DNA from: a virus
Virus record (IMG/VR): IMGVR_UViG_3300017996_000111
Location: 1-32,338 of that record
Direction: 5' to 3' (one strand)
Length of the DNA stretch: 32,338 bases
Shown here: piece by piece, positions 761-18,583 of the stretch
Layout of the letters: each line of letters begins with the position of its first letter
Position numbering within the stretch: position 1 is the stretch's first letter
The notes under the pieces: model-generated
Seen by the model: the letters and a program-made list of their open reading frames with translations, nothing else
What the model was told of the DNA's origin: nothing
Databases searched by the model: none
Position numbers and translations under genes: made by a program

Positions 761-2712
761 TGAAACGCATCTTTCTTTTTCTGGTTTTTCTGCTTTGCCT
801 TCCGCTCACCGCGCGTGCCCAAGTATATCCCCAGCCACCGAACATTGGTCTTCTAGCGAATCGGCCGACATTTTGTTCGTCAACCGGACAGCAGTATTAC
901 GCGATGGACAACTCGACGCTTTACTATTCAACCGTTGCAGGGACGTCCTGTACATGGACTGCGGTCGGCGGTTCCGGTGCTGGCGTGCCATCGCAGCAAG
1001 TCGCGCCGAACATGAATGACGTTTATGTCTCGGAGAACTGCGGCAGTCAGACGAATTGCTTTCAGGCAAATCCTGACTTGAGAGCGAGTGGCTCGTGTGT
1101 ATGGACAGCCAGCAGCTCGACCGTCACCGATGCGACAGATGCACCGTGGACTTCGGCCGACATCGGAAAAAAGATTTACGGGGCGAATACAAGTTCGCAC
1201 GCCTCAGCGATCTCTTCTGGCAATGGCATCGGCACGATCACCGCAGTCGGTTCTCCATCGAGCATTACGATCTCAGGCACGGTTCCCAGTACGATCAATC
1301 CTGGTTCCTGTGCCTGGTATACCGCAGATCAAACTTCAGTTTTTGCCGCAGCACAGGCTTATGCCTTAGCTCTTACAGCGGTGAACGGAATCATCGCTTC
1401 GAGTGTGAGTCCAAACTTTCCATATCGTGTTGTGATTCGTACGGGACCGGGAAACTACAAGGTCAATTCGGCGGTGCTTAACATCACGGCTGGTACACAG
1501 GGTGATACAGGAATAAGTTTTATCGGCTCGGGATCTGGAACTAAGTTCTATCCCGGTCCTGATTTCACCGAGGCCGGTACAACGAGTGGGCTAGTTTTCG
1601 AGTACTCCTATAACGATTACACCATCTCAGATTTTGTTGTCGATGGAATCGGCGGGGCAGTGCCAGGATTTGTGAACTCAACTTGTTGCGGTTTCGTTAG
1701 CGCCTCGAATGGCAGGGACATTCATGTAAAGCGCATCATTATGTTCGGACCGGCCTGGAAAACTTCTCAAGCTTCTCCGCTGCTTGAATCGTATATCGCA
1801 ACAACTGGGTCTACGATCGAAGAAAATTTCATTACTGGCGGAACCGGATTCTCATCGCGTAGCGACCATAGCAGCGCGAGTTACAGTTCGAACTATTTCG
1901 GCAATTCCAATCAGTCGGATGAATGGATCGGGGGCGGCTTCGCTACCAATTTGAGCGAAGCAGCCAATCCAATCGAAGTCAAAAATCATGTTGGTGACGA
2001 ATGCGATTCTCCACCCTGCCATGTCTTTACCGGCGCATGGGTACGGTTTAGCGGCGGTTCTCTCTATGGCGGTCCCGTCCTGTCGTGTGATGGCACAAGC
2101 TATCTAGAGTTCAACGCTATGAGCATTTCGCCATACGGCGGTGCCGATTACGATGGCATCGACGTCAAGGGTGGTTGCGTGATGACCTTCCGCGACAGCT
2201 TTGTCAATGGCGGAAATTCACACAAAGTTTTCGTGCAATCGGGCGGCAGCGGTGCAGGTAATGTCTACGATCTCGGCGGAAATTATTTCCAGACATGCCA
2301 ATCAGCTTTCGGTTCATGCGCGCCAGCGACGACCGGATTGTATTCGGGCACGATGAACTTCTTCGGTTCGCAATCGGCGACTGGAATCGCGCAAACGACG
2401 ACGAATATCGCTCTCACAAGCGGATGGGGCAGCGGAACCAATGTAACGGCAGCTGCCGGCGATTCGCACAGCATGACCTTCTCAATCACCCTCGCCGGGA
2501 GCTCAAGTTCCGGCTCGGTCGTTACGGTCACGTTTCCGACTCCGTTCCTAGTCGCACCGCTTAATTGTTATGTGACGAGCACGACAGGTACGGATGCCTC
2601 GTTGCTGACCTCAGTTGTCGTAGGTACGCCGAGTGCGACATCGGTCACCCTCACCTATAACGGCACTCTCACGGCCGCCGATACCATCATCGAAGGATTG
2701 GTTTGCCAGTAG
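760..2712 (+). CDS. Secreted right-handed beta-helix protein (tailspike / pectate-lyase-like)
   Basis: A 650-residue protein that starts with a clear Sec signal peptide: basic residues at 2-3, a hydrophobic run IFLFLVFLLCLPL, and a cleavage-type site ARA before QVYPQ. There is no lipobox cysteine. The middle (about residues 170-560) has the Gly/Ser/Asn-rich short-strand repeats of beta-helix tailspikes and pectate lyases, including a TSVFAAAQAYALAL helix like the one that often caps such helices. About 17 cysteines, several close together (STCCGF, GDECDSPPC), would suit disulfides in an exported protein. The start follows the previous stop as TGATG; an upstream extension in the same frame overlaps the previous gene and would bury the signal peptide, so it is rejected. 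It could be a depolymerase or a host-envelope protein. Catalytic residues cannot be assigned by eye. Confidence 0.7.
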   Translation: MKRIFLFLVFLLCLPLTARAQVYPQPPNIGLLANRPTFCSSTGQQYYAMDNSTLYYSTVAGTSCTWTAVGGSGAGVPSQQVAPNMNDVYVSENCGSQTNCFQANPDLRASGSCVWTASSSTVTDATDAPWTSADIGKKIYGANTSSHASAISSGNGIGTITAVGSPSSITISGTVPSTINPGSCAWYTADQTSVFAAAQAYALALTAVNGIIASSVSPNFPYRVVIRTGPGNYKVNSAVLNITAGTQGDTGISFIGSGSGTKFYPGPDFTEAGTTSGLVFEYSYNDYTISDFVVDGIGGAVPGFVNSTCCGFVSASNGRDIHVKRIIMFGPAWKTSQASPLLESYIATTGSTIEENFITGGTGFSSRSDHSSASYSSNYFGNSNQSDEWIGGGFATNLSEAANPIEVKNHVGDECDSPPCHVFTGAWVRFSGGSLYGGPVLSCDGTSYLEFNAMSISPYGGADYDGIDVKGGCVMTFRDSFVNGGNSHKVFVQSGGSGAGNVYDLGGNYFQTCQSAFGSCAPATTGLYSGTMNFFGSQSATGIAQTTTNIALTSGWGSGTNVTAAAGDSHSMTFSITLAGSSSSGSVVTVTFPTPFLVAPLNCYVTSTTGTDASLLTSVVVGTPSATSVTLTYNGTLTAADTIIEGLVCQ

Positions 2713-2810
2713 TAGAATGCCAGAGCGCAAGACATACCGGGTCAAGCGTCACCGACCTGGGCCACGCTCCGAACAAGAAGTCGTACATTCGATGGCCTTG
2801 CGGCTATTGA
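2703..2810 (+). CDS. Small 35-residue hypothetical protein with two cysteines
   Basis: A very short reading frame starting at TTG 2703 with GAAGGA six bases upstream, overlapping the end of the beta-helix gene by 10 bases. The product ends in SYIRWPCGY and has cysteines at residues 6 and 32 plus two histidines, the make-up of a small metal-binding or structural peptide. It fills the interval in front of the next gene, whose strongest ribosome-binding site lies at 2829-2834. I counted about 70% G/C at third codon positions over residues 6-35, against about 61% for the competing frame that would extend the next gene. It is too short to be certain. Confidence 0.4.
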   Translation: MPVVECQSARHTGSSVTDLGHAPNKKSYIRWPCGY

Positions 2811-2842
2811 GCAATCAGAAGCACACACAGGAGGCTCTCGAA

Positions 2843-3205
2843 ATGGAAGTAGATCAAGTCGTCTACGAGTACGGCAAACTTCATCTTAACTTCGTCGCGT
2901 GCCAGCGCTCTAACGCCATGCTCGCGACTCAGCTCGCTCAAGCGAACAAGAACATCGCCACGATCACCGCAGACGCCAACAAATCCGCCGCCCGGCTCGC
3001 ACAACTCAGTGCGTGGGCAAACGAACAGAACCTCGCGCTTCCCGATGTGCCGGCACCGGCGGAACCGAAACCAGAAGGCACCGAAGGACTCGAACCGCCT
3101 TCTCAACCTGGAACCCCAGTCGGGATCGCCGGCAGCGAAGCACTTCAACCCGGCGCTGGATCTCGCGTCGTCAAGATCCCGCACAAGCGCGCATCCGAAA
3201 GCTAA
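2843..3205 (+). CDS. Small coiled-coil phage protein, unknown function
   Basis: A 120-residue protein. Residues 1-65 look helical and coiled-coil forming (Ala/Gln/Leu/Asn-rich heptads), followed by a Pro/Glu-rich linker (about 67-95) and a basic tail ending HKRASES. I chose ATG 2843 because a perfect AGGAGG sits 8 bases upstream within CACACAGGAGG, the same extended site found before several other genes here. ATG 2717 in the same frame would add 42 residues but has no ribosome-binding site and would cover the small frame at 2703-2810. It lies 11 bases ahead of the small terminase gene, so it is probably co-transcribed with the packaging genes. Phage spanin u-subunits or assembly factors can look like this, but there is no membrane segment, so I assign no function. 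Confidence 0.6.
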   Translation: MEVDQVVYEYGKLHLNFVACQRSNAMLATQLAQANKNIATITADANKSAARLAQLSAWANEQNLALPDVPAPAEPKPEGTEGLEPPSQPGTPVGIAGSEALQPGAGSRVVKIPHKRASES

Positions 3206-3216
3206 GGGGCTAACTC

Positions 3217-3741
3217 GTGGCACGAAAGCGCTCGAAGCCCGGCGCACGCAAGAAGCGAAGACCGCTCACTCCGCGCCGGGTGAAGTTCGTCAAGCAACTG
3301 GTCCTCGGCAAATCCCTAGCCGAGGCCGCCAGGAAGTCCGGATATACCAAACACAGGGCCAACCAGGCGGGACACCAAGCTCTCGAACAGATCCGAAAAG
3401 CCGCTCCCGAACTCCTGGCCGAGCACGGCCTAACCGATGACGTCCTGATTGATAATTACCTACTCCCGCTGATGAACGCCGAAAAGACCGAGTTCTTCCC
3501 GTACACACAGCGCGGCCAGCGCAAATTGCTCACCGTGAACGTCGTGGACTGGCGAGCTCGCGACGACGGCTTAGAGAAAGCCATGAAGATTCGCGGGCTC
3601 TACGTGAAGGAAGCCGAGAACACCGGACCGCAATTCTCGGTCGTCATCATAAACGGCGACAATCGGCCGCCGTGGTCGCAAATGAAGCGCGCGATGCAAC
3701 CCGCCGAAGCAGCTCCACTCCCAGGAGATCCCGCGCCATGA
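3217..3741 (+). CDS. terS: Terminase small subunit
   Basis: A 174-residue protein with the layout of a DNA-recognition terminase subunit. A basic N terminus (about 1-20) is followed by a helix-turn-helix region: FVKQLVLGKSLAEAARKSGY at about 28-47, then KHRANQAGHQALEQIRK, which resembles the HTH of the terminase small-subunit families. The C-terminal half (about 70-174) would carry oligomerisation and large-subunit contact. Known role: it binds the packaging site and loads the large subunit. The start is GTG 3217 behind AAGGGG. The stop overlaps the next start (ATGA). The matching large subunit lies 2.1 kb downstream, separated by the glycosyltransferase-sulfotransferase gene and three small genes, which is unusual because the two are commonly adjacent. 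Confidence 0.75.
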   Translation: MARKRSKPGARKKRRPLTPRRVKFVKQLVLGKSLAEAARKSGYTKHRANQAGHQALEQIRKAAPELLAEHGLTDDVLIDNYLLPLMNAEKTEFFPYTQRGQRKLLTVNVVDWRARDDGLEKAMKIRGLYVKEAENTGPQFSVVIINGDNRPPWSQMKRAMQPAEAAPLPGDPAP

Positions 3742-5084
3742 TCGTCTTTTGTATTACCTGTCGAGGCCGCAACCAGCACATTCGCCTCACCCTTCCGAAA
3801 AACATCGTAGACAACGCCGACTTCCGAGATTGCAAGTTCGTACTCCTGGACTATGGGAGCCCGGACGATCTCATAAGCTACGTGCTCACCCATCACATGC
3901 GGTCGATCCTGGCCGGCCGGCTCGTGCTCTATCGCTTCCCGGACCAGAAGGGGTTCAAGATGGCGCACGCAAAAAACATGGCGCACCGTCTGGGGATCCT
4001 GGAAGGCGGCGACATCCTCGTGAATCTCGATGCGGATAACTACACCGGACCAGGCTTCGCTAAGTACGTTGCCGAGAAGTTCGCCGCAGATCCGAACGTC
4101 TTCTTGTGGGCAAACCGCAACCAGCCGTCGGAGATCCGGTATCCGAAAGGATGCAACGGCCGGATTGCCGTGAGCAAACATGCCTTCGTCAACGCCGGCG
4201 GTTACAACGAAGGGAAGTATGAAACCTGGGGGCCCGATGACAAAGACTTCAACTTCCGGTTGCGGCGTCTCGGCTACACGCCGGCAGAGATCCCGCGGCA
4301 ATTCTTAGAAGTCGTGCTCCACAACGACAAGATGAGATTTCGCGACTATCCCCACGCGAAGAACGGCGGCTCGAACTGTGACGATGAAATCGTCGAAGGC
4401 AACGAGACGATCGCGAACTTCGGCAACTTCGGATGCGGAACCGTCTATCGCAACTTCGATCCCTCGCCTATCGAACTCAGGCCAGTCCCGACGCGGGTCT
4501 TCGGGATCGGGATGCACAAGACGGCCACGACGTCGCTACATCACGCGCTCAAGATCCTCGGCTACGACTCCGCTCACTGGAAGTCGGCACATTGGGCGAA
4601 GGCGATCTGGCGAGAGATGAACACACTCGGCCGATCGCTCACGCTTGAGAAGAGTTACGCGCTCTGTGATCTGCCGATCACGCTCCTGTACCAGAAGCTC
4701 GACCGCGCTTATCCTGGCTCGAAGTTCATTCTCACGAAGCGATCGGAAGACGGCTGGATCGAGACGGTGCGGAAGCATTGGGATCCCGCGTTCAATCCCT
4801 TCCGCGGCCAGTGGGACGGCGATCCCTTCACGCACCGGATCCACACGATCTTGTACGGAAGCCCTGACTTCAACGCCGAGAAGATGCTCGCGCGCTACCG
4901 ATCGCACAATGCGGCCGTGCTGGAATACTTCAAAGGGCGCCCGGACGATCTTCTCGTGATGGACATGGACTTCGGCTGGCCGAACCAGGATGACGCCGGC
5001 GCCGGATGGTGGGAGCTCTGTTCGTTCCTCGGCGATCGGATCCCGCTCGGCGTACCATATCCGCGCGCGTTCGCGAGCTACTAG
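3738..5084 (+). CDS. Bifunctional glycosyltransferase (GT-A type) - sulfotransferase fusion
   Basis: A 448-residue two-domain enzyme. Residues 1 to about 240 form a family-2-like glycosyltransferase: an N-terminal beta-alpha-beta (MIVFCITCRGR), a metal-binding DxD in NLDADNYTGPGF (D98-A-D100), and the acceptor-side motif GGYNEGKYETWGPDDKDF at about 154-171, as in galactosyltransferase C-terminal domains. Residues about 252-448 form a sulfotransferase: FGIGMHKTATTSL holds the 5'-phosphosulfate-binding loop (K261), and KFILTKRSEDGW resembles the 3'-phosphate-binding region of PAPS-dependent enzymes. Predicted reactions: sugar transfer from a nucleotide sugar, and sulfate transfer from PAPS. The start ATG 3738 overlaps the small terminase stop (ATGA) behind CAGGAG. 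The fold calls are strong; the acceptors are unknown. Virion or host-surface decoration is inference. Confidence 0.8.
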   Translation: MIVFCITCRGRNQHIRLTLPKNIVDNADFRDCKFVLLDYGSPDDLISYVLTHHMRSILAGRLVLYRFPDQKGFKMAHAKNMAHRLGILEGGDILVNLDADNYTGPGFAKYVAEKFAADPNVFLWANRNQPSEIRYPKGCNGRIAVSKHAFVNAGGYNEGKYETWGPDDKDFNFRLRRLGYTPAEIPRQFLEVVLHNDKMRFRDYPHAKNGGSNCDDEIVEGNETIANFGNFGCGTVYRNFDPSPIELRPVPTRVFGIGMHKTATTSLHHALKILGYDSAHWKSAHWAKAIWREMNTLGRSLTLEKSYALCDLPITLLYQKLDRAYPGSKFILTKRSEDGWIETVRKHWDPAFNPFRGQWDGDPFTHRIHTILYGSPDFNAEKMLARYRSHNAAVLEYFKGRPDDLLVMDMDFGWPNQDDAGAGWWELCSFLGDRIPLGVPYPRAFASY

Positions 5085-5091
5085 GCGTAAG

Positions 5092-5289
5092 ATGACGGCT
5101 GAACATTATCCACGCGGGACCGAATCAGTTTTGAAATGGTGCAATCGGTGCGGACGACTGACGAAGCATCGCGTGGATGATGTACGCGCCGGTCGCTGCT
5201 TAGAGCACGATGCGCCCGCTGAATCAAAGAAACAGAGGGCGGCGCGATTGAAACGTGAAGCGCCAGAGACAGGCAAACTCTTCGAGTAG
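5092..5289 (+). CDS. Small zinc-ribbon-like protein
   Basis: A 65-residue protein with CNRCG near residue 17, then CLEH about 20 residues later: a C-X2-C / C-X2-H arrangement that should bind zinc. The rest is highly charged, with basic KKQRAARLKRE near the end. It starts 7 bases after the glycosyltransferase-sulfotransferase stop and ends 8 bases before the next start, so it is part of the same transcript. It is one of several small Cys/His proteins scattered through this genome. DNA or RNA binding is plausible, but no family can be named. Confidence 0.65.
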   Translation: MTAEHYPRGTESVLKWCNRCGRLTKHRVDDVRAGRCLEHDAPAESKKQRAARLKREAPETGKLFE

Positions 5290-5297
5290 GAGCTACC

Positions 5298-5549
5298 ATG
5301 CAAATCCCCGCGGCGATGTTCATCGAATCGGCAGTCGATAGCGTGAAGGCAATCACGGACTTCCAGCGACGCGCTCAGCTCTCCGAACTGCATGAGGTCG
5401 GCGACCAGGCGCTCAAGGGAATGGGCGCGAGCGGCATCAATGACGACGTCGCCGCCGGCTACCTTCTCGGACTTCAAACCGCTCGTGTGATGATTATGAC
5501 GAACGCGAAGATCCAACTTGCCGGCCTGGTTCCTGGCGACATCCTGTGA
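5298..5549 (+). CDS. Small conserved-type phage protein, unknown
   Basis: An 83-residue, mostly helical protein without Cys/His clusters or membrane segments. The start ATG 5298 follows a good AGGAG site 6 bases upstream, and the stop overlaps the next start as GTGA. Its place just ahead of the large terminase suggests a packaging accessory role, but the sequence itself gives no functional motif. Confidence 0.6.
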   Translation: MQIPAAMFIESAVDSVKAITDFQRRAQLSELHEVGDQALKGMGASGINDDVAAGYLLGLQTARVMIMTNAKIQLAGLVPGDIL

Positions 5550-5887
5550 GCTTCGAGCCGATCACTCTCGATGCGATGCAAGGATTTATCGCGCCGATCC
5601 ACGTTCGGAAGATCCTCACTGAGCTCACGCGCCAGTTACAGGATCGTCCAGATCGGGCTCAGTGTCATCCGATCCAGCGCATTTGCGTGCAGAACGCGGC
5701 GACCAGCGTCGGTCCTGTGGACGGCAAGCTGGCGCTCGAAGGAAAACCGCTGCGCGAATATCCGATGACGCTCGGCGGGATCCCGCTCAAATCCGAGAAG
5801 ACCATGCCGGATGACGTCATCGAGTTCTACTGCGGCAACCAGTTCGTCGCGAAGATCTTCAACCTGGCGAAACCGCCGGGCCTCTAA
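5546..5887 (+). CDS. Hypothetical protein preceding large terminase
   Basis: A 113-residue protein starting at GTG 5546, overlapping the preceding stop (GTGA), and ending in TAATG that shares a base with the large terminase start. Such tight coupling on both sides argues for a real gene. Residues about 20-40 look helical; the C-terminal half (MPDDVIEFYCGNQFVAKIF) alternates like beta strands. I see no recognisable motif and assign no function. Confidence 0.6.
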   Translation: MSFEPITLDAMQGFIAPIHVRKILTELTRQLQDRPDRAQCHPIQRICVQNAATSVGPVDGKLALEGKPLREYPMTLGGIPLKSEKTMPDDVIEFYCGNQFVAKIFNLAKPPGL

Positions 5888-7521
5888 TGGGTGTGCCACA
5901 AGTCGATCTTTCGCGGCTGAATACCGCGAGCTTCTATAATCCCTGGCCGAAACAGAACGAGCTCCATACTTCGCCAGCGATCGATCTCCTGGCGATCGGC
6001 GGAAACGGATCCGGCAAGTCGGCATTCCTGTTAGGCGAGGCCGTCTACCTGGCGCTAGAGTTCCCTGGCTCGGATTGCCTGTTGCTCCGCAAGAACTTCC
6101 CCGAACTAGAGAAGGGGCTCATCCTCGACCTCAAGAACACGCTTCCGCCGTCTCTCTATCGCTACAACGACTCGAAGCACATCGCGACATATCCGAACGG
6201 CTCCCACACGTTTTTCGGCCATTGCAAATCAGGCAGCGAGAAAGACCTCGCGAAGTATCTCTCGTCCGCGTTCTGTTTCATCGGGATCGACGAGCTCGGC
6301 CAGTGGAGCTATGACGCCTTCTCGTTCCTCGGCTCGCGCAACAGAATCAACAAAGGATGCCGGCCGAACATCCGCGGCGAGTGGCCGGTTCCTCGCATGG
6401 GCGGCGCGACAAACCCGATGGGACCAGGCTACGGCTGGATCAAGAAGCTCTGGATCGACAAGAAGCCCGTGTCACAGATGGGCAAGGACATCGAAGAGCA
6501 CGAAGGCAAGTGGTACTCGCCGATCACTGACAAGAAGATGCTCGCGCTCGAAGAGATCCGGAAGCGCGTCGTGTTCATCAAAGGCGAGGCGTTCATTTGC
6601 GTTTACGATCCCGCAGACTATTACTTCGTCCACTCGACCGTCGTCGATAACCCGGCGCAGCTTGAGAAAGATCCGGATTACATCAACAAGCTGATGAAGC
6701 TCGCGCCAGCGCTGCGCGCGAAAGCTCTGTACGGGGATCTCAAGTCGATTGCCGGCACGTATTTCTCGAACTTCGCGCAAGATCGGCATGTTCTCAGGCT
6801 TCCGGACGACAACGAGCTTATTGAATGGCAGGACTGGCAACCACGATGGATCGGCATCGATTGGGGGCTTGCTCACTGGTCCGCGGTGTTTTGGGCAACG
6901 AAGGCGCGCGTGCGGAAGTTCGTCGGCGCGCCTTGGCGGCAAGTCACCGTGATCTACCGCGAGCTCATCGAGAACGAGAAAAGCTACGACGAGCTTTGCA
7001 ATCTCATTGTGGACGCGACGCCGAAAGAAGAGCGGGCAACTCTCAAACACGTCTATCTTTCGCCCGAACGATTCGCGCGCAGCGGCGACAAGGATCCCTC
7101 GAAGACGATCGGTATTCAGATGGGGCTCTACTTCAAACCCCTGGGCTTCCCGATGTGCGAGCCGGCCAACAATCGCCGCGTCGATGGCGCCGTCTATATG
7201 TACAACGCGCTAGAGAATGACGAGCTCGTCATCCTAGACAACTGTCCTGGGCTCATCAGCGCACTCGAAGTCGTCACCCGCGATGAGGACAATCCCGAAG
7301 ACGTGCTCAAGGTCGAGGGCGCCGTCGAGGATGACGTATACGACGGTGCGCGCTACACTGTGCTCTCGGAAGCAAAACCGCGACCGAAGACTGGCGAAGT
7401 CGTGTACCATGAGCGCCTGGAAAAGATCCAGGATCCGATGGCTCAGCGAATGTTCAGCTTACAACATCACATGGCGAAGCAACGCAAGTTCAAACCGATC
7501 AAACCGAGGTTTCGGCCATGA
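5887..7521 (+). CDS. terL: Terminase large subunit (ATPase-nuclease packaging motor)
   Basis: A 544-residue protein of normal length for the family. The N-terminal ATPase has a PKQNELH adenine-binding region, Walker A GGNGSGKS (about 38-45, K44) and Walker B FIGIDELGQW (D135-E136). The C-terminal RNase H-like nuclease starts at WIGIDWGLAH (D325), a typical first metal-binding aspartate. DDVYDGARY near residue 492 matches the last acidic position of the nuclease active site. Role: it translocates genomic DNA into the prohead and cuts it at the end of packaging. It overlaps its neighbours by one base (TAATG) upstream and four (ATGA) downstream. Confidence 0.93.
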   Translation: MGVPQVDLSRLNTASFYNPWPKQNELHTSPAIDLLAIGGNGSGKSAFLLGEAVYLALEFPGSDCLLLRKNFPELEKGLILDLKNTLPPSLYRYNDSKHIATYPNGSHTFFGHCKSGSEKDLAKYLSSAFCFIGIDELGQWSYDAFSFLGSRNRINKGCRPNIRGEWPVPRMGGATNPMGPGYGWIKKLWIDKKPVSQMGKDIEEHEGKWYSPITDKKMLALEEIRKRVVFIKGEAFICVYDPADYYFVHSTVVDNPAQLEKDPDYINKLMKLAPALRAKALYGDLKSIAGTYFSNFAQDRHVLRLPDDNELIEWQDWQPRWIGIDWGLAHWSAVFWATKARVRKFVGAPWRQVTVIYRELIENEKSYDELCNLIVDATPKEERATLKHVYLSPERFARSGDKDPSKTIGIQMGLYFKPLGFPMCEPANNRRVDGAVYMYNALENDELVILDNCPGLISALEVVTRDEDNPEDVLKVEGAVEDDVYDGARYTVLSEAKPRPKTGEVVYHERLEKIQDPMAQRMFSLQHHMAKQRKFKPIKPRFRP

Positions 7522-7898
7522 GCGATGAGTTCGAGATCGTTCAGCCGAGCCGCCCCTTGGCAAATCGCATCCGCGATTTCTTTGAGACTTTGTTCACTGG
7601 CCGCTTAGTGTTACAGTTGCGCGCAGATTTAGAGGAAGCCCGTGCTCAACGTGACTACTTCAAAGGCCGCGCGGAACGTCTCGAACTTCAACTCTTGCAA
7701 CCTCGCGTCGCCGCTCATAGCCTTGATGCTGGCACCGCACAACCTCGCGCTCATCCGACGGGTACTCTTGGCGGCCGGAAGACCTGGCAACAAATCGTCT
7801 CGGACCGCCGCAAGCAACTCGCGGAACTCGCAGCCGAAAAGCAAAAGAAACCAGAAACTTCCGCGCCGACAGCATCCGCACCGCCGACGCAGAACTGA
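7518..7898 (+). CDS. Small coiled-coil protein
   Basis: A 126-residue protein with a predicted coiled coil at about 30-60 (LQLRADLEEARAQRDYFKGR), then a Gly/Arg/Trp patch (TLGGRKTWQQI) and a second charged helix. The start overlaps the large terminase stop (ATGA), so it is translationally coupled. It has no membrane segment or signal peptide. It might be a head-assembly accessory, but the sequence gives no direct clue. Confidence 0.6.
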   Translation: MSDEFEIVQPSRPLANRIRDFFETLFTGRLVLQLRADLEEARAQRDYFKGRAERLELQLLQPRVAAHSLDAGTAQPRAHPTGTLGGRKTWQQIVSDRRKQLAELAAEKQKKPETSAPTASAPPTQN

Positions 7899-7909
7899 GG
7901 GGTAATCGA

Positions 7910-8332
7910 ATGGCGTACACCGCAAAAGATGGGAAGCGCTTCGAGAATCAGGAGATCGGCCGCACGTACGATCGAAGCCGCGGCCACGAGCCGCCGAAGG
8001 AAAAGAAGGCGAAGGCAGAGCCGGCCAGCGAGAAAGGCCGCGAAGGCGAAGAAGAGCCGATCGAGGAAGTCGTGAAGGCGCACGGACCTGCACACAAGAC
8101 CGAGATCGAGAAGACCGAAGACGAAGGCGAAGAGTATTCCGTTCACTCGCATCACGAAGACGGACACAAACACTCGTCGCACGGTCACGATCTTGAGTCC
8201 GCGCATCATCACTCGATGAAGGCGCACGGCGCCGAGGGCATGGAAGACGAAGAGCCCGAAGGCGAAGAAGAGGGCGAATCCGCGCCCGCGACGGGATCCT
8301 CGCCGCCGGGAATGCCGGCGATGCAGGAGTAA
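7910..8332 (+). CDS. Acidic, histidine-rich low-complexity protein
   Basis: A 140-residue protein with strongly biased composition: Glu/Lys-rich at about 25-75, then a histidine-rich stretch at about 80-105 (SHHEDGHKHSSHGHD, then HHH), then a Glu-rich tail and a Pro/Gly end. It is probably disordered. The His cluster could bind metal ions such as zinc or nickel, which is inference. The start ATG 7910 follows GAGGGG. The acidic tract resembles those in the portal and scaffold proteins of this window. No enzymatic motif is present. Confidence 0.6.
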   Translation: MAYTAKDGKRFENQEIGRTYDRSRGHEPPKEKKAKAEPASEKGREGEEEPIEEVVKAHGPAHKTEIEKTEDEGEEYSVHSHHEDGHKHSSHGHDLESAHHHSMKAHGAEGMEDEEPEGEEEGESAPATGSSPPGMPAMQE

Positions 8333-8337
8333 CGAAG

Positions 8338-8571
8338 TTGGCTTCTCAGAAGGACGCCGGCAGTGCCGCAACTGGCTTTGTGACGGCGCGGGAATCGGAA
8401 CCGCCGCGGCGGTGTGATAATTGCGAGCACTTCCGCCGCGGCTTGCGGGAATCCGGGTACTGTGACGGTGAACACATTATGCGGGATCCGGAGTTGAAGG
8501 GCCGAAGGAACTCACAGGGCCTCGTGAAAGTTGAGCCCGACTCGTACTGTTGGTGGTACGACGCTAAGTGA
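8338..8571 (+). CDS. Small four-cysteine metal-binding protein (HiPIP/rubredoxin-like in pattern)
   Basis: A 77-residue protein beginning at TTG 8338, with AGGAG 8 bases upstream. Four cysteines are placed as RCDNCEHF (26, 29), GYC (42) and SYCWWYD (70), preceded by a VKVEPDSYC motif. This spacing is seen in small phage proteins often labelled high-potential iron-sulfur-like, which bind either zinc or an Fe-S cluster. The pattern is visible; the metal and role are not. It sits 5 bases after the preceding gene. Confidence 0.65.
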   Translation: MASQKDAGSAATGFVTARESEPPRRCDNCEHFRRGLRESGYCDGEHIMRDPELKGRRNSQGLVKVEPDSYCWWYDAK

Positions 8572-8624
8572 TGAAGCGGAAGTCATCCCCCCGAAGCAAA
8601 ATCACACACAGGAGAAAACAGACT

Positions 8625-9014
8625 ATGGATCCAGCATTTGAAGTCCACAAACTGAACTCACGCGGGATGCAGAAGGCGAAGCGACTCGCCTCGAACTTCG
8701 ACACGCATCTCTCGATCGTTCGCGAGATCGTCGGCGAGGCTTATTCCGAAGGCGGCCTGATGTACAAGTGCATCGAGCATCTTGAGCTCGCGAGCTTTTA
8801 TGCGAAGAAGACTCTCGCGCAGCAACCGGGCAATCAAGATCTCGGAAACGAAGCCGAGGCCGAGGCACCGTTCGCCGCCCTGGCGCAAGATAAAGCGGGA
8901 CCGGCCGCGTTCACCGGGACCGTCGGTGGATTCCTTGGTTTCATTCGTGGTATGAAGTTCACGAAATTCGAGGCCGATCGACTGATGAAGGCGATCGCCG
9001 ACCAGACACGCTAA
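8625..9014 (+). CDS. Hypothetical helical protein
   Basis: A 129-residue protein, mainly alpha-helical. Residues 1-65 are amphipathic; the second half has a Gly-rich segment GTVGGFLGFIRGMKF at about 99-113 that could touch membrane or pack tightly. I chose ATG 8625 over an upstream ATG because it sits directly behind ACACACAGGAGAA, the extended ribosome-binding site repeated in this genome. No functional family is recognised. Confidence 0.65.
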   Translation: MDPAFEVHKLNSRGMQKAKRLASNFDTHLSIVREIVGEAYSEGGLMYKCIEHLELASFYAKKTLAQQPGNQDLGNEAEAEAPFAALAQDKAGPAAFTGTVGGFLGFIRGMKFTKFEADRLMKAIADQTR

Positions 9015-9041
9015 TCGGGAAGTTCACAGGAGAAGACGACG

Positions 9042-9218
9042 ATGCCGAAAGAAGTGAAGGGCGAAACCCGCGGTTATCCATGCGAGGACTGCGGAGAGAC
9101 ATTCGTTACGGCCGAAGATTTCTCGAATCACTTTAGCCGAAACGAAGGCGCGGCCACGATTGAGACATGCAGATACACGCCGGCCGGCGTAAAGAAGCTG
9201 CGGAAAGCGGCCGCGTAA
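9042..9218 (+). CDS. Small C2H2/C2HC-type zinc-finger protein
   Basis: A 58-residue protein. PCEDCGETF (C14, C17) is followed by SNHFSR (H30) and ETCRY (C42), giving a C-X2-C-X12-H-X11-C finger. The start follows TTCACAGGAGAAG, one of six exact copies of the CACAGGAGAA site, with ATG 9 bases after the AGGAG core. Its tail is basic (KKLRKAAA). Nucleic-acid binding is plausible. It is very short, but the ribosome-binding site, the finger pattern and the close neighbours support it. Confidence 0.65.
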   Translation: MPKEVKGETRGYPCEDCGETFVTAEDFSNHFSRNEGAATIETCRYTPAGVKKLRKAAA

Positions 9219-9230
9219 CAGAGAGGTTGA

Positions 9231-9398
9231 ATGCCCTGGACGCCGAAACAGACGCGGTATCTTTTGTCGAAAGTTTCGCCGCTCAGTGAGGACCAGAAGA
9301 GCAAGATGAAGTCGGAGTTACATGCAAACCCCCGCTTAGCTCACAGGAAGAAGAACCCGATTACCCGGGCAAAGGAGCATCGTTCCGGTAACGGTTAA
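9231..9398 (+). CDS. Small basic hypothetical protein
   Basis: A 55-residue, strongly basic protein (12 Lys/Arg) starting at ATG 9231 with GAGAGG upstream (the same GAGAGGTTGA precedes the first gene at 65). The N-terminal half looks helical (YLLSKVSPLSEDQKSKMKSE) and the rest is a Lys/Arg/His-rich tail. Short basic proteins with an MPWTPK-like opening are common between packaging and structural genes of phages. The function is unknown. Confidence 0.55.
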   Translation: MPWTPKQTRYLLSKVSPLSEDQKSKMKSELHANPRLAHRKKNPITRAKEHRSGNG

Positions 9399-9431
9399 TC
9401 CACAATCCGCAAGAGCGGAAGGGGGCAGCAT

Positions 9432-10046
9432 ATGGCCGTGCAAACGATCAACGTCTCAGGAATCGCGGAACTTCGGTTCGTCCTCGCGGCGAACACACAG
9501 TTTTATTTCACAGGCGCGGTCGATAATCAAAAGCTGCGCCTCATCCTACAGCAACCGGTGAGCGGTGGACCATTCACCGTGTCATCGGGAAACTGTCCCG
9601 GACTTCAACAACCCAACGCGACTGCGGGCGACAGTTCGGCACAGGAGCTCACCTACGACGCTGTGACGAATACCTGGAACGGCGTACCACCGCCGGCTAT
9701 CGGTGGAAACTCACAAGCACCGCAGATCATCGCTTATGGCGCATCGGGCGCTGGCCTGGCAATCAACAAAAACGCGGGAATGTGCATTTTGAACGGTGGT
9801 GGTGTGGTTGCGGCGACGCTGGTTCAACCTGTCGCCGGGCCGCCGGGAATCGGAGATGACGGCGTTGTCTTGAAAATCGTATCCGGTTCGGCGAACGCTC
9901 ATACCGTCAAGACTTCGGCCGATGGCATCTCACCGGCAGCGGATACCATCACCTTCGGCACAGTTGGCGCGGGTGTCACGTTGCAAGCCTTTGACGCGGT
10001 GTGGTACATGATCGGCGGGGTAGCTGCAACGCCGACCGAAGCCTAA
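9432..10046 (+). CDS. Beta-rich structural protein (capsid decoration or fibre-type), unknown
   Basis: A 204-residue protein of alternating beta segments. Its opening (INVSGIAELRFVLAANTQFY) and an ITFGTVGAGVTLQAFDAVWY segment near the end resemble surface modules of phage fibres or head decorations. The start ATG 9432 follows GGAAGGGGG. Its neighbour at 10119 is a paralogue of the tail-fibre tip, which supports a virion-surface role. A stem-loop follows the gene at 10071-10094. No catalytic motif is present. Confidence 0.6.
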   Translation: MAVQTINVSGIAELRFVLAANTQFYFTGAVDNQKLRLILQQPVSGGPFTVSSGNCPGLQQPNATAGDSSAQELTYDAVTNTWNGVPPPAIGGNSQAPQIIAYGASGAGLAINKNAGMCILNGGGVVAATLVQPVAGPPGIGDDGVVLKIVSGSANAHTVKTSADGISPAADTITFGTVGAGVTLQAFDAVWYMIGGVAATPTEA

Positions 10047-10070
10047 ACGAGAGAACCTAACAACGCCGGC

Positions 10071-10104
10071 GCGGGCAGCGGCGAATCTGCCCGCCACACT
10101 TTTG
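10071..10104 (+). terminator. Stem-loop with short T run, possible weak terminator
   Basis: An 8-bp perfect stem GCGGGCAG/CTGCCCGC with an 8-base loop is followed after CCACAC by four T. It lies in the 72-base gap between two structural genes. The T run is short and offset, so partial termination or RNA processing is as likely as full termination. Confidence 0.4.
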
Positions 10105-10118
10105 AGGGAGCGTGACTA

Positions 10119-10751
10119 ATGAGTCTAGCGGGAAGCGTTCAAGCGTTAGCGGCACAGGTCACTAAGAACACCGGCGGCGCGCAGTCCGATCGTCTCTTCA
10201 CAACCAGCGTCACTCTGATGGACTCCGCGCTAGGAAGTTCCTTCCGTCTCATCGATTCCGAAGTCGGCCTCGGCTATCAGGGCTCGACATCCGTTTCGGG
10301 AAGCCTGGTTGCCATTCGTGGGAACACAACGATCACCGCCGGGACAACCGTAACCGGCCAGTCGTATCTCTACGGCGTGCAAGGCAAACTCACGATCCAG
10401 GGCCATCACACCGGGACAGCCGAGGTTTCGTGCGGCGTTCTCGGCCAGCTCGATCTATCGGCGGCTCAAGCTGTCACCGCTCCCGTTGCTTGCGTCTGGG
10501 CCGACTGCGGCGCATCGGTCGGGACGGCGACAGGCGCGAACATCGACGGAGTCGTAATCTATAACACGATCTCGACGCTTAAGATCAACTCGGCGATTCG
10601 CATCTCTGCATACTCAAACTATCTGTTCGATCTCAGTGATCCGGGAACGAACTGGTTCCTCGGAACTAATGCGGCGACTGCGGCCGGCACGCTCAAGATC
10701 AACATGAATGGAACGGCGAAGTATATTCAGCTTTACTCATCCGAGAGCTAA
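10119..10751 (+). CDS. Fibre-tip paralogue / decoration protein
   Basis: A 210-residue protein. From about residue 40 to the end it aligns by eye with residues 310-496 of the tail fibre encoded at 22467-23957. Shared landmarks in the same order are IDSE, SVSGS, AIRG, the block YLYGVQGKL (83-91; FLYGVQGKL in the fibre), GQLD/AQLD, and YLFDLSD (168-174). The free-standing copy lacks the fibre's N-terminal Ig-like domain and repeats. It is probably a surface-exposed beta domain, displayed on the head or bound to the fibre. The start ATG 10119 follows GAGGGAG. The duplication is seen in the sequence; the role is inference. Confidence 0.7.
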   Translation: MSLAGSVQALAAQVTKNTGGAQSDRLFTTSVTLMDSALGSSFRLIDSEVGLGYQGSTSVSGSLVAIRGNTTITAGTTVTGQSYLYGVQGKLTIQGHHTGTAEVSCGVLGQLDLSAAQAVTAPVACVWADCGASVGTATGANIDGVVIYNTISTLKINSAIRISAYSNYLFDLSDPGTNWFLGTNAATAAGTLKINMNGTAKYIQLYSSES

Positions 10752-10760
10752 ACGATCTCT

Positions 10761-10827
10761 GGCGGCGCGGCGTGCGCAACGGAAGAACTGAGGGCTTTCG
10801 CTGCGCGATGACCCTCGCCACGCCGCC
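10761..10827 (+). other. Long GC-rich hairpin in the leader of the TTG-start gene
   Basis: GGCGGCGCGGCG at 10761-10772 pairs with CGCCACGCCGCC at 10816-10827, 11 of 12 positions with one C-A mismatch. An inner GCGCA/TGCGC pair (10774-10778 with 10802-10806) extends it. It ends seven bases before the CACAGGAGAA site of the gene at 10850. No T run follows, so it is not an obvious terminator; mRNA stability or translation control is possible. Confidence 0.4.
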
Positions 10828-10849
10828 GGAACACACAGGAGAAGCGAAC

Positions 10850-11218
10850 TTGAAAGAAGCAACCCCCATCACTGGAAGCGTAATCACGAAATCGCTGAAC
10901 GTCCCGGAACGGCTGAACTTACTTTCGATTCTGCCGGTACAGGGGAATCTCGCGACGCTTCGGATCGTTCGCGATCTTCGCGAGAAGCTGAGTTTGAGCG
11001 AGGAAGAGCACAAAGAGTTCGGGATCACAACGATCCACAACGACAACGGTTCGGTTACATTTAACTGGACGAACGGCGATGCGGCACTCACGCCGCGAAA
11101 GTTCCAGTTCCAACCGAAGGCGCTCTCGATTATCGTCGAGGCGCTACGACAGCTCGACACGCAAAAGCAACTTCGCACCGAACACATTTCGCTCTACGAG
11201 GCATTTATCGAGGACTAG
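10850..11218 (+). CDS. Conserved-type phage protein, unknown
   Basis: A 122-residue protein. I chose the TTG at 10850 because ACACACAGGAGAA lies just upstream with normal spacing; a GTG at 10772 in frame would translate through a strong hairpin and the ribosome-binding site. The sequence is helical (LNVPERLNLLSILPVQGNL; REKLSLSEEEHKEF), then beta in the middle, then helical to the end. The pattern resembles a recurrent small phage protein of unknown function. It lies 3 bases upstream of the HNH-like gene. Confidence 0.65.
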   Translation: MKEATPITGSVITKSLNVPERLNLLSILPVQGNLATLRIVRDLREKLSLSEEEHKEFGITTIHNDNGSVTFNWTNGDAALTPRKFQFQPKALSIIVEALRQLDTQKQLRTEHISLYEAFIED

Positions 11219-11221
11219 ACG

Positions 11222-11566
11222 ATGATTGACTTCCAACGTGATTGGCACGGACGGCTCTTGCCGATCCACGGACATGCGCGAGAAGGTCGAGCGTCACGGA
11301 CCTATCAAACGTGGAAGGGAATGATCCAGCGATGCAGGAATCCAAAGGCTGCGAACTATTCGCGATTCGGTGGACGCGGGATTCGAGTCTGCCGTCGCTG
11401 GCGAGTCTTTGCGAATTTTCTCGCTGATATGGGAGAGAGGCCGATCGCAATGACGCTCGATCGTAAGGATGGCAGCAAGGGATACTATCGGCAGAATTGC
11501 CGATGGGCAACTCGCATCGAACAAACGGCAAATCGAGCAAACGTCGGGAGGCCGAAACATGGCTGA
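11222..11566 (+). CDS. HNH-like DNA-binding/endonuclease-family protein (divergent)
   Basis: A 114-residue protein with three blocks that recur in a phage family related to HNH homing endonucleases: TYQTWKGMIQRC (about 27-38), FGGRGIRVCRRW (about 49-60) and MTLDRKDGSKGYYRQNCRWAT (about 77-97), ending EQTANR. The last block matches the beta-beta-alpha metal finger of HNH enzymes, but the usual first histidine is replaced by arginine (LDR), so nuclease activity is doubtful. DNA binding is likely. The stop overlaps the next start by 8 bases. Family resemblance is clear by eye; activity is unknown. Confidence 0.65.
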   Translation: MIDFQRDWHGRLLPIHGHAREGRASRTYQTWKGMIQRCRNPKAANYSRFGGRGIRVCRRWRVFANFLADMGERPIAMTLDRKDGSKGYYRQNCRWATRIEQTANRANVGRPKHG

Positions 11567-11795
11567 GAAATGGATGGGCGAGGTTTCGCGTGGTATCAAG
11601 CGCCGCGGCACGAAAGGCGTCTTCAAACGCGCGGCCGAGCACGCCGGTCAGAGCACCGCCGGCTATGCGGCCAAGATCTCTGCGCGCAACCGCAGATGGC
11701 ATGAGAATCACCCGGACGAGAAAATGCCGCCGAAGATGGCGAAAGCCGGCAAGCGCGCGGGCCTGGCTCGTGCATTTGCATCCGCGCATCACTAA
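11559..11795 (+). CDS. Small basic protein of phage type
   Basis: A 78-residue, very basic helical protein (Lys/Arg/His about one third). The region RRGTKGVFKRAAEHAGQSTA resembles short basic proteins common near portal genes. It starts inside the end of the HNH-like gene (8-base overlap) and ends 7 bases before the portal start. It may bind DNA or RNA, which is inference from charge only. Confidence 0.65.
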   Translation: MAEKWMGEVSRGIKRRGTKGVFKRAAEHAGQSTAGYAAKISARNRRWHENHPDEKMPPKMAKAGKRAGLARAFASAHH

Positions 11796-11802
11796 GAGCT
11801 GA

Positions 11803-14514
11803 ATGCCGACTGACACCCAGGATCTCGACGAGAAGGACGTACAGAACGAAGGCGAGACGAAGGACATCGAAGCTCTCGACTTCCCGCCGGGTGTGCTCGC
11901 TCCCTCAGAGATCAACAAGCAATCTCCCCCGCTTCACTTCGAGGACGACGAGAAGAACGCGATTAAAGCGCTGAATAAGAAAGTCGCTCAGCGCGACATG
12001 CCGGCACGCCGCGAACAGATCATCCGCGTGTGGGAAGCTCGCCTCTTCGATCGACAGTTCCAGCATCTTCTACCGCGCCAAAACGGCGGATGGGAACTCC
12101 CCGCGCTCGGAACCGGCTATGGTCGAGGCGAAGAGGAAGATCGCTCGCAATGGGAAATCGACATTTATTCGAGTTACCGGAAGATCATTTGCGCCGCACT
12201 CACGCGCGAAGTTCCCGGCACTCGATTCGAGCCTGGCGATCCAGACAGCGATCGCGACATCACGGCCAGCTCGAACGCCGAGAAGCTCAAGTCGAAAGTC
12301 GAGCGCGACAATCGGCTCAAGGAATTGCAGGGCGAGACGGCTCGCTTCCTTTGGACCGATGGCCTGGCCGTTCATTTAACGCGCTACGTCCTCGACGCTC
12401 AGGCGTTCGGCTATGAGCCCGAACCCGAAGGCGAGGTTCCCGAAGATGAAGAGACAGGAGAATCCGAACACGCAATCGGTCACGAAGGCGGAAGTGAGGA
12501 AGTATCTGACGAACTTTCCGAAGCTGATGGAAGCGCTTCTGAGGGAGATCACGCCGAATCGGATGAGGAAGAAAAAGCCGAAGGCGGCGAGGGAAGCGAA
12601 GAGGAAGAAGGCGAAGAGGGCGAAGAGTTTGACTCAAGCTGGCAGCCGCGCGGTCAGGAGCTCATAACCGTCGATGGCGCACTCGCCTGGAAGCTCCCGA
12701 TCAAAGCAAACTGTCTCAAGGCTATGCCGTGGGCTCGCTATTCGTTCGAGGTCGATCTCGCCTCAGCGAAGGCCATGTTCCCGGATGTGGCCGACCAGCT
12801 CAAACCGGCGCAGAGCGGATCTGAATCTTCCGACGACGGCGACGATCTCGAACGGCTCGCGCGAATCAATGTGCTCTTGGGTGTCGAAGACAACTTCATC
12901 ACCGAAGACTCGACCGTCTACGACGTCACGATTCAAAAGTTCTGGTATCGGCCAGGCGCGCTCATGGAGATCCCGAACAAGGAAATCCGCGAGCGAATCA
13001 TCAAAAAATGCTGGCGCGGGCTCTATGTCACATTCGCCGGCGGGAACTTCTGCGAAGGCCGCAACGCTTCAATGGATGATTACCTGGCGCTCACCTTTGC
13101 GGATGCCGGCGACGGTGTGCATCGGCCAGCGCTCGGATCTCCGCTCATCGCACCGCAAAAGGTTCTGAACACTCTCGCCGAGCTGGCCTACGACTATTTT
13201 GTTCATGGCGTGCCGATGACGTACATGGACGACGAGATGTTCGACACCGAGGCGATCAACGACCAGGACAATATCGTCGGCGGCGTGCGGCCGTTCGAGG
13301 CGATCCCAGGTCAACAGGTGGACGGCATCTACTGGTTCCGCGAAGAGCCGGTTCCCTTCCCGGAACAGTTGCTCATGTATACGCAATGGCTCATGGACGA
13401 AGTCGCGCAACTGATGAGCGGCGCGTATCCCGCGCTCTTCGGCGGCGATATGACGAACCAGGGCGTCGGCGATGCGCTGATGCAGCGCGACCAGGCTCTC
13501 GGACGTCTCGGCCTTCCCTGGCGGAACATCAAGCAAACAACCGCGGACGTGAATCGCCAGGCGGTGCAGTCTATCTCGATCAACGCGGAAGGCATCATCA
13601 AGCTTGGCGGCGTCGAGAAAGTTCAGGTCGACACAGCCGACCTCAAGGGGAACATCCTTTGCTTCCCCGACACCGACGAGAACATCCCGGAATCGTGGAC
13701 ACAGAAGTCGAACCGCTTCGCGATGATCGTCACGGATGCGGCGACTAATCCCTTCTTTCAACAGTTGCTCGACGATCCCGGCAATTTGAAGCTCGTCAAG
13801 GACATGAGTGGATTCAAGGAACTCCGGATCCCGATGCTCGACTCGTGGGAACAGCAGCTCGGCGAGATCGCGATCTTGTCGGAGTCCGGACCGGCGCCGA
13901 ATCCTGATTATGTAAACCTCGAAAAACAGATCGCGGATCTCACCGCGAAGATCTCGGCGGCCACAACTTCGCAAGCGCCGATGACTGGCGAGATCCCGAC
14001 AGTCGAGGGCGCACAAGTTCCCCCGCCGGCGCCGCCGCAAGCGATCGCTCCCCCGGCCGAACTCGTACAACAGCTCGCGGCGCTCAACGCGCAGCTTCAA
14101 ACCACGCCGCCGCTCATCTCGACGTATCCGATCGACGTCCAATGCGACGATCATGCCGTACACGCGCTTACTTGCTTGGGCCTCATCAACTCGCCGAAAG
14201 GCCGCGCGATGAAGAACGGCACAGCTCAGGACCAGAAGGCGTTCGCGAATATCCGTTTGCACTTCATGGAGCACACCGCGGCGGATGCGAAGAAAAAAGC
14301 ACAGCAACAAGCGCAAGCGGCCGCCGGTCCGACGAAGCCGCCGGCGTTCTCAGCGAACGTGAAGGATCTGCCGCCGAAGGAAGCCGCTCAAGTTATGCAA
14401 AAGGGCGGTGTACAATCCGATCCGAAGGACTTTGCTGCACAGGACACGGCCGAAGCGGTCGCGAAGCATCCCGCGCAATTAGCGAGCGCGATCCCGGCGG
14501 CCACGGGAGCTTAG
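11803..14514 (+). CDS. Portal protein
   Basis: A 903-residue protein, at the large end for portals and similar to long podovirus-type portals. Residues 70-200 have the helical, Trp/Arg-rich opening seen in such proteins (REQIIRVWEARLFDRQFQHL); about 300-640 form the core; the last 200 residues are Ala/Pro/Gln-rich and would lie inside the head. Role: dodecameric vertex for DNA entry and exit, partner of the large terminase. An acidic low-complexity insert sits at about 203-280 (up to runs of EEEE), and its DNA shows unusual codon statistics. Placement after the terminases and before the scaffold supports the call. I see no single diagnostic motif, so size, composition and position carry weight. 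Confidence 0.8.
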   Translation: MPTDTQDLDEKDVQNEGETKDIEALDFPPGVLAPSEINKQSPPLHFEDDEKNAIKALNKKVAQRDMPARREQIIRVWEARLFDRQFQHLLPRQNGGWELPALGTGYGRGEEEDRSQWEIDIYSSYRKIICAALTREVPGTRFEPGDPDSDRDITASSNAEKLKSKVERDNRLKELQGETARFLWTDGLAVHLTRYVLDAQAFGYEPEPEGEVPEDEETGESEHAIGHEGGSEEVSDELSEADGSASEGDHAESDEEEKAEGGEGSEEEEGEEGEEFDSSWQPRGQELITVDGALAWKLPIKANCLKAMPWARYSFEVDLASAKAMFPDVADQLKPAQSGSESSDDGDDLERLARINVLLGVEDNFITEDSTVYDVTIQKFWYRPGALMEIPNKEIRERIIKKCWRGLYVTFAGGNFCEGRNASMDDYLALTFADAGDGVHRPALGSPLIAPQKVLNTLAELAYDYFVHGVPMTYMDDEMFDTEAINDQDNIVGGVRPFEAIPGQQVDGIYWFREEPVPFPEQLLMYTQWLMDEVAQLMSGAYPALFGGDMTNQGVGDALMQRDQALGRLGLPWRNIKQTTADVNRQAVQSISINAEGIIKLGGVEKVQVDTADLKGNILCFPDTDENIPESWTQKSNRFAMIVTDAATNPFFQQLLDDPGNLKLVKDMSGFKELRIPMLDSWEQQLGEIAILSESGPAPNPDYVNLEKQIADLTAKISAATTSQAPMTGEIPTVEGAQVPPPAPPQAIAPPAELVQQLAALNAQLQTTPPLISTYPIDVQCDDHAVHALTCLGLINSPKGRAMKNGTAQDQKAFANIRLHFMEHTAADAKKKAQQQAQAAAGPTKPPAFSANVKDLPPKEAAQVMQKGGVQSDPKDFAAQDTAEAVAKHPAQLASAIPAATGA

Positions 14515-14516
14515 AA

Positions 14517-14708
14517 GTGGCACTCGACGGCGAAGGCTATACCGATAAAGAGTTCTTCAAATTGCGATACCGGCATTTGAAGGAACTCGGTACGCCTGGC
14601 CTCACAAAACGCACGACGACGGTCCAGGACGAAGGCACTAGTAAATGGAGAACGGTCTGGATCATCGAATATGAAGCCGCGGAAGAACCCGCGAAGCTCG
14701 TGAACTGA
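14517..14708 (+). CDS. Small hypothetical protein
   Basis: A 63-residue protein starting at GTG 14517, two bases after the portal stop and behind GGGAG. It alternates charged helix (YTDKEFFKLRYRHLKELG) with a short beta hairpin (SKWRTVWIIEYEA). The gene ends just before the CACAGGAGAA site of the scaffold candidate. The tight spacing on both sides makes it credible; the function is unknown. Confidence 0.6.
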   Translation: MALDGEGYTDKEFFKLRYRHLKELGTPGLTKRTTTVQDEGTSKWRTVWIIEYEAAEEPAKLVN

Positions 14709-14721
14709 CACAGGAGAAAAT

Positions 14722-16160: not shown

Positions 16161-16235
16161 CGCGCGGATGGAGCAACGGCGGCTCGCCTGGCTCATTACC
16201 AGGAAACCAGGAGTTCAATTCTCCCCGCGCAACCA
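16161..16235 (+). tRNA. tRNA-like element, anticodon CAU (Met/initiator-like), encoded CCA
   Basis: Folds by eye into a cloverleaf. Acceptor GCGCGG (16162-16167) pairs with CCGCGC (16225-16230), preceded by a C1-A72 mismatch as in initiator tRNA. The D stem is GAGC/GCTC with GG in the loop, the anticodon stem is CCTGG/CCAGG around CTCATTA (anticodon 16194-16196 = CAT), and the T stem is GGAG/CTCC with a normal TTCAATT loop. It ends in A-CCA. Oddities: three bases instead of two before the D stem, a 4-bp T stem, T at position 37, and no GGG/CCC triplet in the anticodon stem. It may be functional, an initiator-type decoy or a decayed gene. It fills the gap between scaffold and the next gene. 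Confidence 0.65.
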
Positions 16236-16247
16236 ATCGGAGACGAG

Positions 16248-16559
16248 ATGGATGCGAAAGAGCTCAGAAAAAAGCTCGACGAGGGTTTGAAGCCGGATTC
16301 GAGCGGCAAGACAACGCCGATCCAGCGGCTCACCCCGTTTCTACATGATCTCGTCGATTATCTCGAACGGACCGAAAATCAATTCAAGGAAGGCGCGACG
16401 ATACGCGGCCATCTTGACGAGCACGGCGCTTTTGTGGCCGACTCGATCGAACAAGTTTCCAGCGAGCCCACGTTCTCTGACATTGTGAGAACAGATTATC
16501 CGGGCCGCAAATCATTTTCCAGCGACGACGCGACGGAGAAAAATGAACCGGCAACATGA
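16248..16559 (+). CDS. Small hypothetical protein between tRNA-like element and HNH gene
   Basis: A 103-residue acidic, helical protein; the clearest helix is PFLHDLVDYLERTENQFKEG at about 30-49, and the C-terminal third is Ser/Asp/Glu-rich. I chose ATG 16248 with GGAG upstream; a GTG-type extension to 16137 would run through the tRNA-like element and is rejected. Its end overlaps the HNH gene start by 17 bases. No function is recognised. Confidence 0.6.
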   Translation: MDAKELRKKLDEGLKPDSSGKTTPIQRLTPFLHDLVDYLERTENQFKEGATIRGHLDEHGAFVADSIEQVSSEPTFSDIVRTDYPGRKSFSSDDATEKNEPAT

Positions 16560-18564: not shown

Positions 18565-18583
18565 CTCACAGGAGAAGGTGACG

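Follow-up and report, generated by a model that had tools for sequence, protein, structure and literature searches.

A single phage gene was found to join a GT-A glycosyltransferase (GT) to a PAPS-type sulfotransferase in one polypeptide of 448 residues, which, judging from its sequence and predicted structure, is probably an active bifunctional enzyme carrying out both sugar transfer and PAPS-dependent sulfation. The gene lies in a 32,338-base IMG/VR virus record (hereafter the window, meaning the whole stretch of DNA that was analysed) and occupies positions 3738-5084 on the plus strand, with its ATG at 3738 and its stop codon at 5082-5084. A sequence-only reading had placed the ORF at these positions and called the two domains from visible motifs. 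The location was confirmed, as were the motif positions, namely D98-A99-D100, GGYNEG...WGPDDKDF (GGYNEGKYETWGPDDKDF) at residues 154-171 and GMHKTATTS at residues 258-266 with K261, and both domain calls and their fusion were borne out by profile searches, predicted structure and residue conservation. An AlphaFold2 model of the whole protein, built from an alignment of 27 viral relatives, reached a pLDDT of 89.1 and a pTM of 0.89, with a GT-A fold in the first half and a sulfotransferase fold in the second. The two assignments stand because profile, fold and sequence matches to solved structures agree. The G+C content of the gene (0.589) is typical of the window genome, and its GC3 of 0.78 falls towards the top of the range seen in that genome.

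The glycosyltransferase half, residues 1-240 (3738-4457), was delimited from a Glyco_transf_7C match, the predicted fold and comparison with GT-only relatives, and includes a GCGTVxxNF tail. The Glyco_transf_7C match (PF02709, residues 133-181) is marginal, with 23.8 bits against a cut-off of 23, and spans only profile positions 14-61 of 78; Glyco_tranf_2_2 (PF10111) fell below its curated cut-off in the Pfam search of the fusion (22.7 bits versus 27.3). Structural comparison using VIA-align matched residues 1-223 of the model to the chondroitin polymerase K4CP (2z86) at Z 18.5, and Z-scores of 16-18.5 over about 200 residues were obtained for K4CP, SpsA and GalNAc-transferases, with heparosan synthase and WrtF also among the solved structures matched. 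In addition, the domain resembles the polysaccharide polymerase structure 8vh7. Such matches from the PDB show the fold, not the donor specificity. Conservation was scored across 58 non-redundant fusion ORFs, which were also used for the trees, and, for the GT motifs, across eight GT-only relatives. The DxD motif (D98-A99-D100, 4029-4037), which by analogy would bind metal and nucleotide sugar, is present in 58/58 fusions and 8/8 GT-only proteins. The conserved GPDDKD motif (residues 166-171, 4233-4250) may, by the same kind of analogy, occupy the position of the 'GGED' catalytic segment of GT7 and GT27 enzymes; within it, D168 is kept in every fusion and every GT-only relative and D170 in 53 of the 58 fusions. 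H195 (4320-4322) is a candidate third metal ligand and is, like D98, D100, N101, D168 and R200, invariant across the fusions.

The sulfotransferase half, residues 252-448 (4491-5081), was recognized from both profile and fold. Sulfotransfer_4 (PF17784) matched residues 253-444 with 103.5 bits (E 1.8e-29, cut-off 22.8), covering profile positions 1-209 of 215, and residues 250-448 of the model superposed on Cpz8 (9kf2) at Z 19.0 with an rmsd of 2.5 over 182 residues. SgdX2 and schistosome sulfotransferases were further matches among solved structures, by fold as well as by sequence, and profile A1 detected Cpz8 by sequence with an E-value of 1e-17. The 5'-phosphosulfate loop GMHKTATTS (residues 258-266, 4509-4535) retains G258, T262 and T264 in all 58 fusions, with residue 261 being lysine in 53 and arginine in five. 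A predicted 3'-phosphate-binding segment, R335-x7-T343 (4740-4766), keeps R335 in 57 fusions and serine or threonine at 343 in 56, the window having T343 where nearly all relatives show the R-x7-S form. D311 (4668-4670), which aligns with the aspartate of the schistosome 'tDlP' motif, is a candidate catalytic residue present in 58/58 fusions, and W340 is likewise invariant. H280 and H369 are fixed in the fusions and variable in single-domain sulfotransferases, pointing to a candidate acceptor site particular to the fusion, as would suit a site adapted to a single product. Among close fusion pairs for which dN/dS could be computed, values were 0.04-0.2 in both halves. These values, together with the residues kept in 58/58 fusions, indicate that the fusion is not a chance ORF, and the retention of catalytic-type residues in 56-58 of the 58 fusions alongside low dN/dS argues for two working active sites.

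We found the same fusion, encoded as a single ORF, in at least 60 IMG/VR contigs and in three MAG or genome contigs. One of the latter (L032) is a MAG contig whose neighbourhood matches that of viral L111, another (L033) is nearly identical to viral L017 and carries TerL and a portal-type protein, and in the third (L034) the fusion adjoins chromosomal genes of an alphaproteobacterial MAG. Identity to the window protein is 46-60%, except in L002 and L012, two contigs of the window virus itself, whose DNA is 99.6-99.9% identical to the window over 12 kb. A lone copy (L023:9956-11346) is split within its sulfotransferase half by a frame break, reflecting either assembly error or decay. The view that phage sulfotransferases are rare holds for cultured phages, since the sulfotransferase half had no tblastn match at E 0.01 in 50,697 GenBank phage records, but not for uncultivated ones, given the number of contigs above. 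The GT half had a single match among GenBank phages, in the unannotated faecal contig MT837976, and a plasmid search returned single-domain matches and no fusion. Other sulfotransferase families likewise occur in viral contigs, and large viral contigs contain tandem pairs of stand-alone Sulfotransfer_4-type genes (L129/L130:9986-11073 and L131:10199-11176).

Single-domain relatives are bacterial, with GT-only proteins mainly in Alphaproteobacteria and sulfotransferase-only proteins spread across many phyla. In the trees built from each half, a single branch separates the 58 fusions from all other sequences (SH-aLRT 100 for the GT half and 98 for the sulfotransferase half), which fits a single fusion event followed by joint inheritance of the halves. 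The GT-only proteins end in GCGxVxINF, and in the fusions the same element stands ahead of the sulfotransferase, which was therefore most likely added after a complete GT; the GT-only relatives form the outgroup and probably represent the pre-fusion state.

We additionally examined the genomic setting. In the window, the fusion gene follows the terminase small subunit gene terS (3217-3741; phrog_51, E 3.4e-6), with which it shares an ATGA overlap at 3738-3741, and two or three small genes separate it from the large subunit gene terL (5887-7521; phrog_979, E 4.2e-30). Upstream of terS lie a candidate Rz-like spanin gene (2633-3205; phrog_89, E 2e-4) and a tail-fibre-like gene (904-2712; weak Gp53-like_C match, E 0.006), all four being on the plus strand. 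The overlap with terS among head and packaging genes suggests late expression alongside virion proteins. The location between the two terminase genes, which the sequence-only reading had singled out, was verified for the window but did not generalize: TerL lies within 1.5 kb of the fusion in 5 of 29 records against 3.6 expected (p 0.28; this and the other linkage p-values are rough, as records were treated as independent). Because this proximity is at chance level, we rejected the terminase link as a functional clue; the setting is particular to the window virus and a few others.

Several other features of the window genome were recorded. Compared with L012, the window is 99.6% identical over 2708-15081 and 92% identical over 1-444, and the tail-fibre-like gene between them (445-2707) is replaced. 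G+C falls to about 0.53 at this gene, and the segment looks like a swapped receptor-binding gene. The structural region further contains a tRNA-Met(CAT) gene (16161-16235) and two HNH/endonuclease VII-type genes (11222-11563 and 16543-17061), and a weak match to a GroES-like co-chaperonin (18578-18958; phrog_3188, E 2e-4) is found amid probable head genes.

Across relatives, Pfam families were counted in 136 genes located within two positions of the fusion, and the top family was APS kinase, the enzyme that produces the sulfate donor PAPS. Four neighbours, in L007, L106, L121 and L122, exceed the equivalog cut-off of TIGR00455 (apsK), the L106 match being interrupted by one stop codon. A PF01583 match lies within 1.5 kb of the fusion in five of the six records that carry one (0.52 expected, p 6e-6), and these five comprise the four apsK-level genes and an APS-kinase-like gene in L005. 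L007 and the L106/L121/L122 group fall on separate branches of the GT tree, indicating that the APS kinase link was not inherited as a single block. The window has no APS kinase gene in its available sequence, and the same is true of most relatives, IMG/VR records being largely fragments in which the absence of a gene is weak evidence. The gene adjoining the fusion in L005 (L005:11326-12108) joins an APS-kinase-like domain, well below the TIGR00455 cut-off, to an NMNAT/cytidylyltransferase-type nucleotidyltransferase with an HxGH motif, and possibly encodes an unusual PAPS-forming enzyme or an unrelated bifunctional one. Among viral contigs with this kind of APS kinase (L213-L252), 14 of the 37 that lack the fusion carry a PF13469 sulfotransferase anywhere in the record, and viral sulfation therefore probably reaches beyond the fusion.

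The commonest neighbour overall is a papain-fold protein (phrog_19005; for example L007:12326-13132, L014:9162-9917 and 12 other loci), found within 1.5 kb of the fusion in 12 of the 15 records having one (1.6 expected, p 4e-11). Members are about 266 residues long with an invariant Cys and His, occur in at least 200 IMG/VR contigs, and include one annotated as a cysteine protease adjoining an amidase; the model (pLDDT 84) has xylellain as its best structural match. Since the fusion is present at just 2 of 80 papain-fold loci in IMG/VR, we regard this as a common phage gene and not as a part of the system, and reject it as a dedicated partner; the two may merely share an insertion site. A role as a defence protein was also rejected, PADLOC giving no match for the fusion, the papain-fold protein or the APS kinase.

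Based on these results, we propose that the N-terminal domain would use the DxD-bound metal to transfer sugar from a nucleotide-sugar donor onto an acceptor. The C-terminal domain, predicted to hold PAPS through the GMHKTATTS loop and R335/T343, would then transfer the sulfuryl group from PAPS to a hydroxyl, most simply on the sugar just added, as we infer from the two halves being fused and tracing back to one shared origin. That one sugar is both added and sulfated in a single step, as first suggested from the sequence, is plausible, and the resulting glycan would carry sulfate and a negative charge. PAPS would come from host sulfate assimilation and, in some relatives, also from the adjoining APS kinase gene; for the window virus we assume host PAPS. 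Phage enzymes that glycosylate phage proteins and host surfaces are known. To our knowledge, hardly any work has dealt with sulfated glycans in phages and no sulfated-sugar virion coat is known in phages so far; one made by the fusion would, if true, be the first.

Our first choice of acceptor, which we hold tentatively, is a phage virion protein. It is favoured because the fusion sits with head and packaging genes in the window virus, and because some relatives apparently raise the supply of PAPS, as would suit an abundant acceptor; against it, relatives show no general link between the fusion and virion genes. The second choice, which we consider possible but do not expect to hold, is a surface polysaccharide of the host, or a precursor of it: a sulfated sugar placed on a cytoplasmic capsule, O-antigen or exopolysaccharide precursor would alter the receptor and block competing phages. 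Such a role accords with the likeness of the GT domain to polysaccharide polymerases (2z86, 8vh7), with the presence of the fusion in contigs binned with bacteria (L033 and L034), and with the chromosomal location of the GT-only relatives in Alphaproteobacteria. Two of these adjoin polysaccharide genes: L047 neighbours genes for a Polysacc_synt flippase and a GT4, and L035 neighbours one for a GT2-type membrane synthase. This speaks more for a glycan than for a protein as the acceptor; L036 and L050, however, have no polysaccharide genes beside them. Moreover, the commonest neighbour families of the fusion lack the flippase, lipid-carrier GT and acyltransferase of classical O-antigen conversion clusters, and the position of the window fusion in an operon of packaging genes, where late expression is probable, also speaks against a host-surface role.

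It is unlikely that the two halves are uncoupled, acting on different acceptors or being fused for co-expression only, such that the added sugar is never sulfated. Single-domain relatives of each half do exist and act alone, but all 58 fusions group together in the tree of either half, and split pairs are almost absent among the viral contigs found with the query, where the exceptions are the frame-broken L023 and the sulfotransferase-only L129-L131. We consider it more doubtful still that the phage decorates a small molecule or secondary metabolite of its host. The nearest solved sulfotransferases, Cpz8 (caprazamycin) and SgdX2, belong to antibiotic pathways and, as far as the titles of the structures tell, act on small molecules, a point that also counts against our preferred reading; the GT half, on the other hand, resembles polymer and protein glycosyltransferases, and the window has no biosynthetic cluster near the fusion. 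DNA, which had been named as a further target, is highly improbable as the acceptor. A passage of PMC10829341 credits Iyer et al. 2013 with proposing phage nucleotide modification based on glycosyltransferases and sulfotransferases, and a hypermodified base could in principle be glycosylated and sulfated in this manner. TET/JBP enzymes, however, passed their cut-off in none of 56 records and thymidylate-synthase-type enzymes in 3 of 56, these records being mostly fragments, and the structures nearest in fold are glycosyltransferases of carbohydrates and proteins, leaving this target unsupported.

Taken together, our results suggest that some phages make sulfated sugars. The broader proposal, that many uncultivated phages have their virions coated with sulfated sugar by a virus-specific, single-polypeptide sulfoglycan synthase that in some cases brings its own supply of PAPS, is one that we put forward as speculative and, in its entirety, rather unlikely. 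The fusion and its occasional APS kinase nonetheless yield a clear and testable claim, namely that infected cells make a sulfated sugar, and the protein represents a compact natural bifunctional candidate for the production of sulfated glycans.

Finally, we compared the fusion with known systems. With the Sulfotransfer_4 enzymes Cpz8 (9kf1/9kf2), SgdX2 (8y9p) and the schistosome sulfotransferase (4mua, 5tiv) it shares the fold, the PAPS loop GxxxTxTxS, the R-x7-S segment, the aspartate at D311 and the C-terminal signature 'GW..LC.FL...P...yP'. Those enzymes have a single domain, whereas here the sulfotransferase makes up the C-terminal half of a protein that begins with a GT, and only the fusions keep H280 and H369 without exception. 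The GT-A fold over residues 1-223 is common to K4 chondroitin polymerase (2z86/2z87), polypeptide GalNAc-transferases and beta-1,4-galactosyltransferases, as are the DxD, the D168 segment and a histidine near 195, although these enzymes carry no fused sulfotransferase and the sequence match to Glyco_transf_7C is marginal. The alphaproteobacterial glycosyltransferases L035-L040, L047 and L050 have 32-40% identity over the GT half, the DxD and the GCGxVxxNF tail but, unlike the fusion, are chromosomal and without a sulfotransferase domain. Mycobacteriophage glycosyltransferases such as that of Maravista, thought to act on capsid protein (PMC11256854), are phage-encoded like the fusion but involve no sulfation. 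A literature search, confined largely to papers outside subscription journals, retrieved no description of a phage GT-sulfotransferase fusion or of a phage APS kinase-sulfotransferase pairing. Both enzyme families are already known. Viral sulfotransferases are listed as auxiliary metabolic genes (AMGs) in passages of PMC8290583, PMC12285232 and PMC10829341, which name the sulfotransferase alone and mention neither a GT fusion nor an adjacent APS kinase; the enzyme proposed here would assign a defined function to some of what is now vaguely annotated as 'sulfotransferase AMG'.
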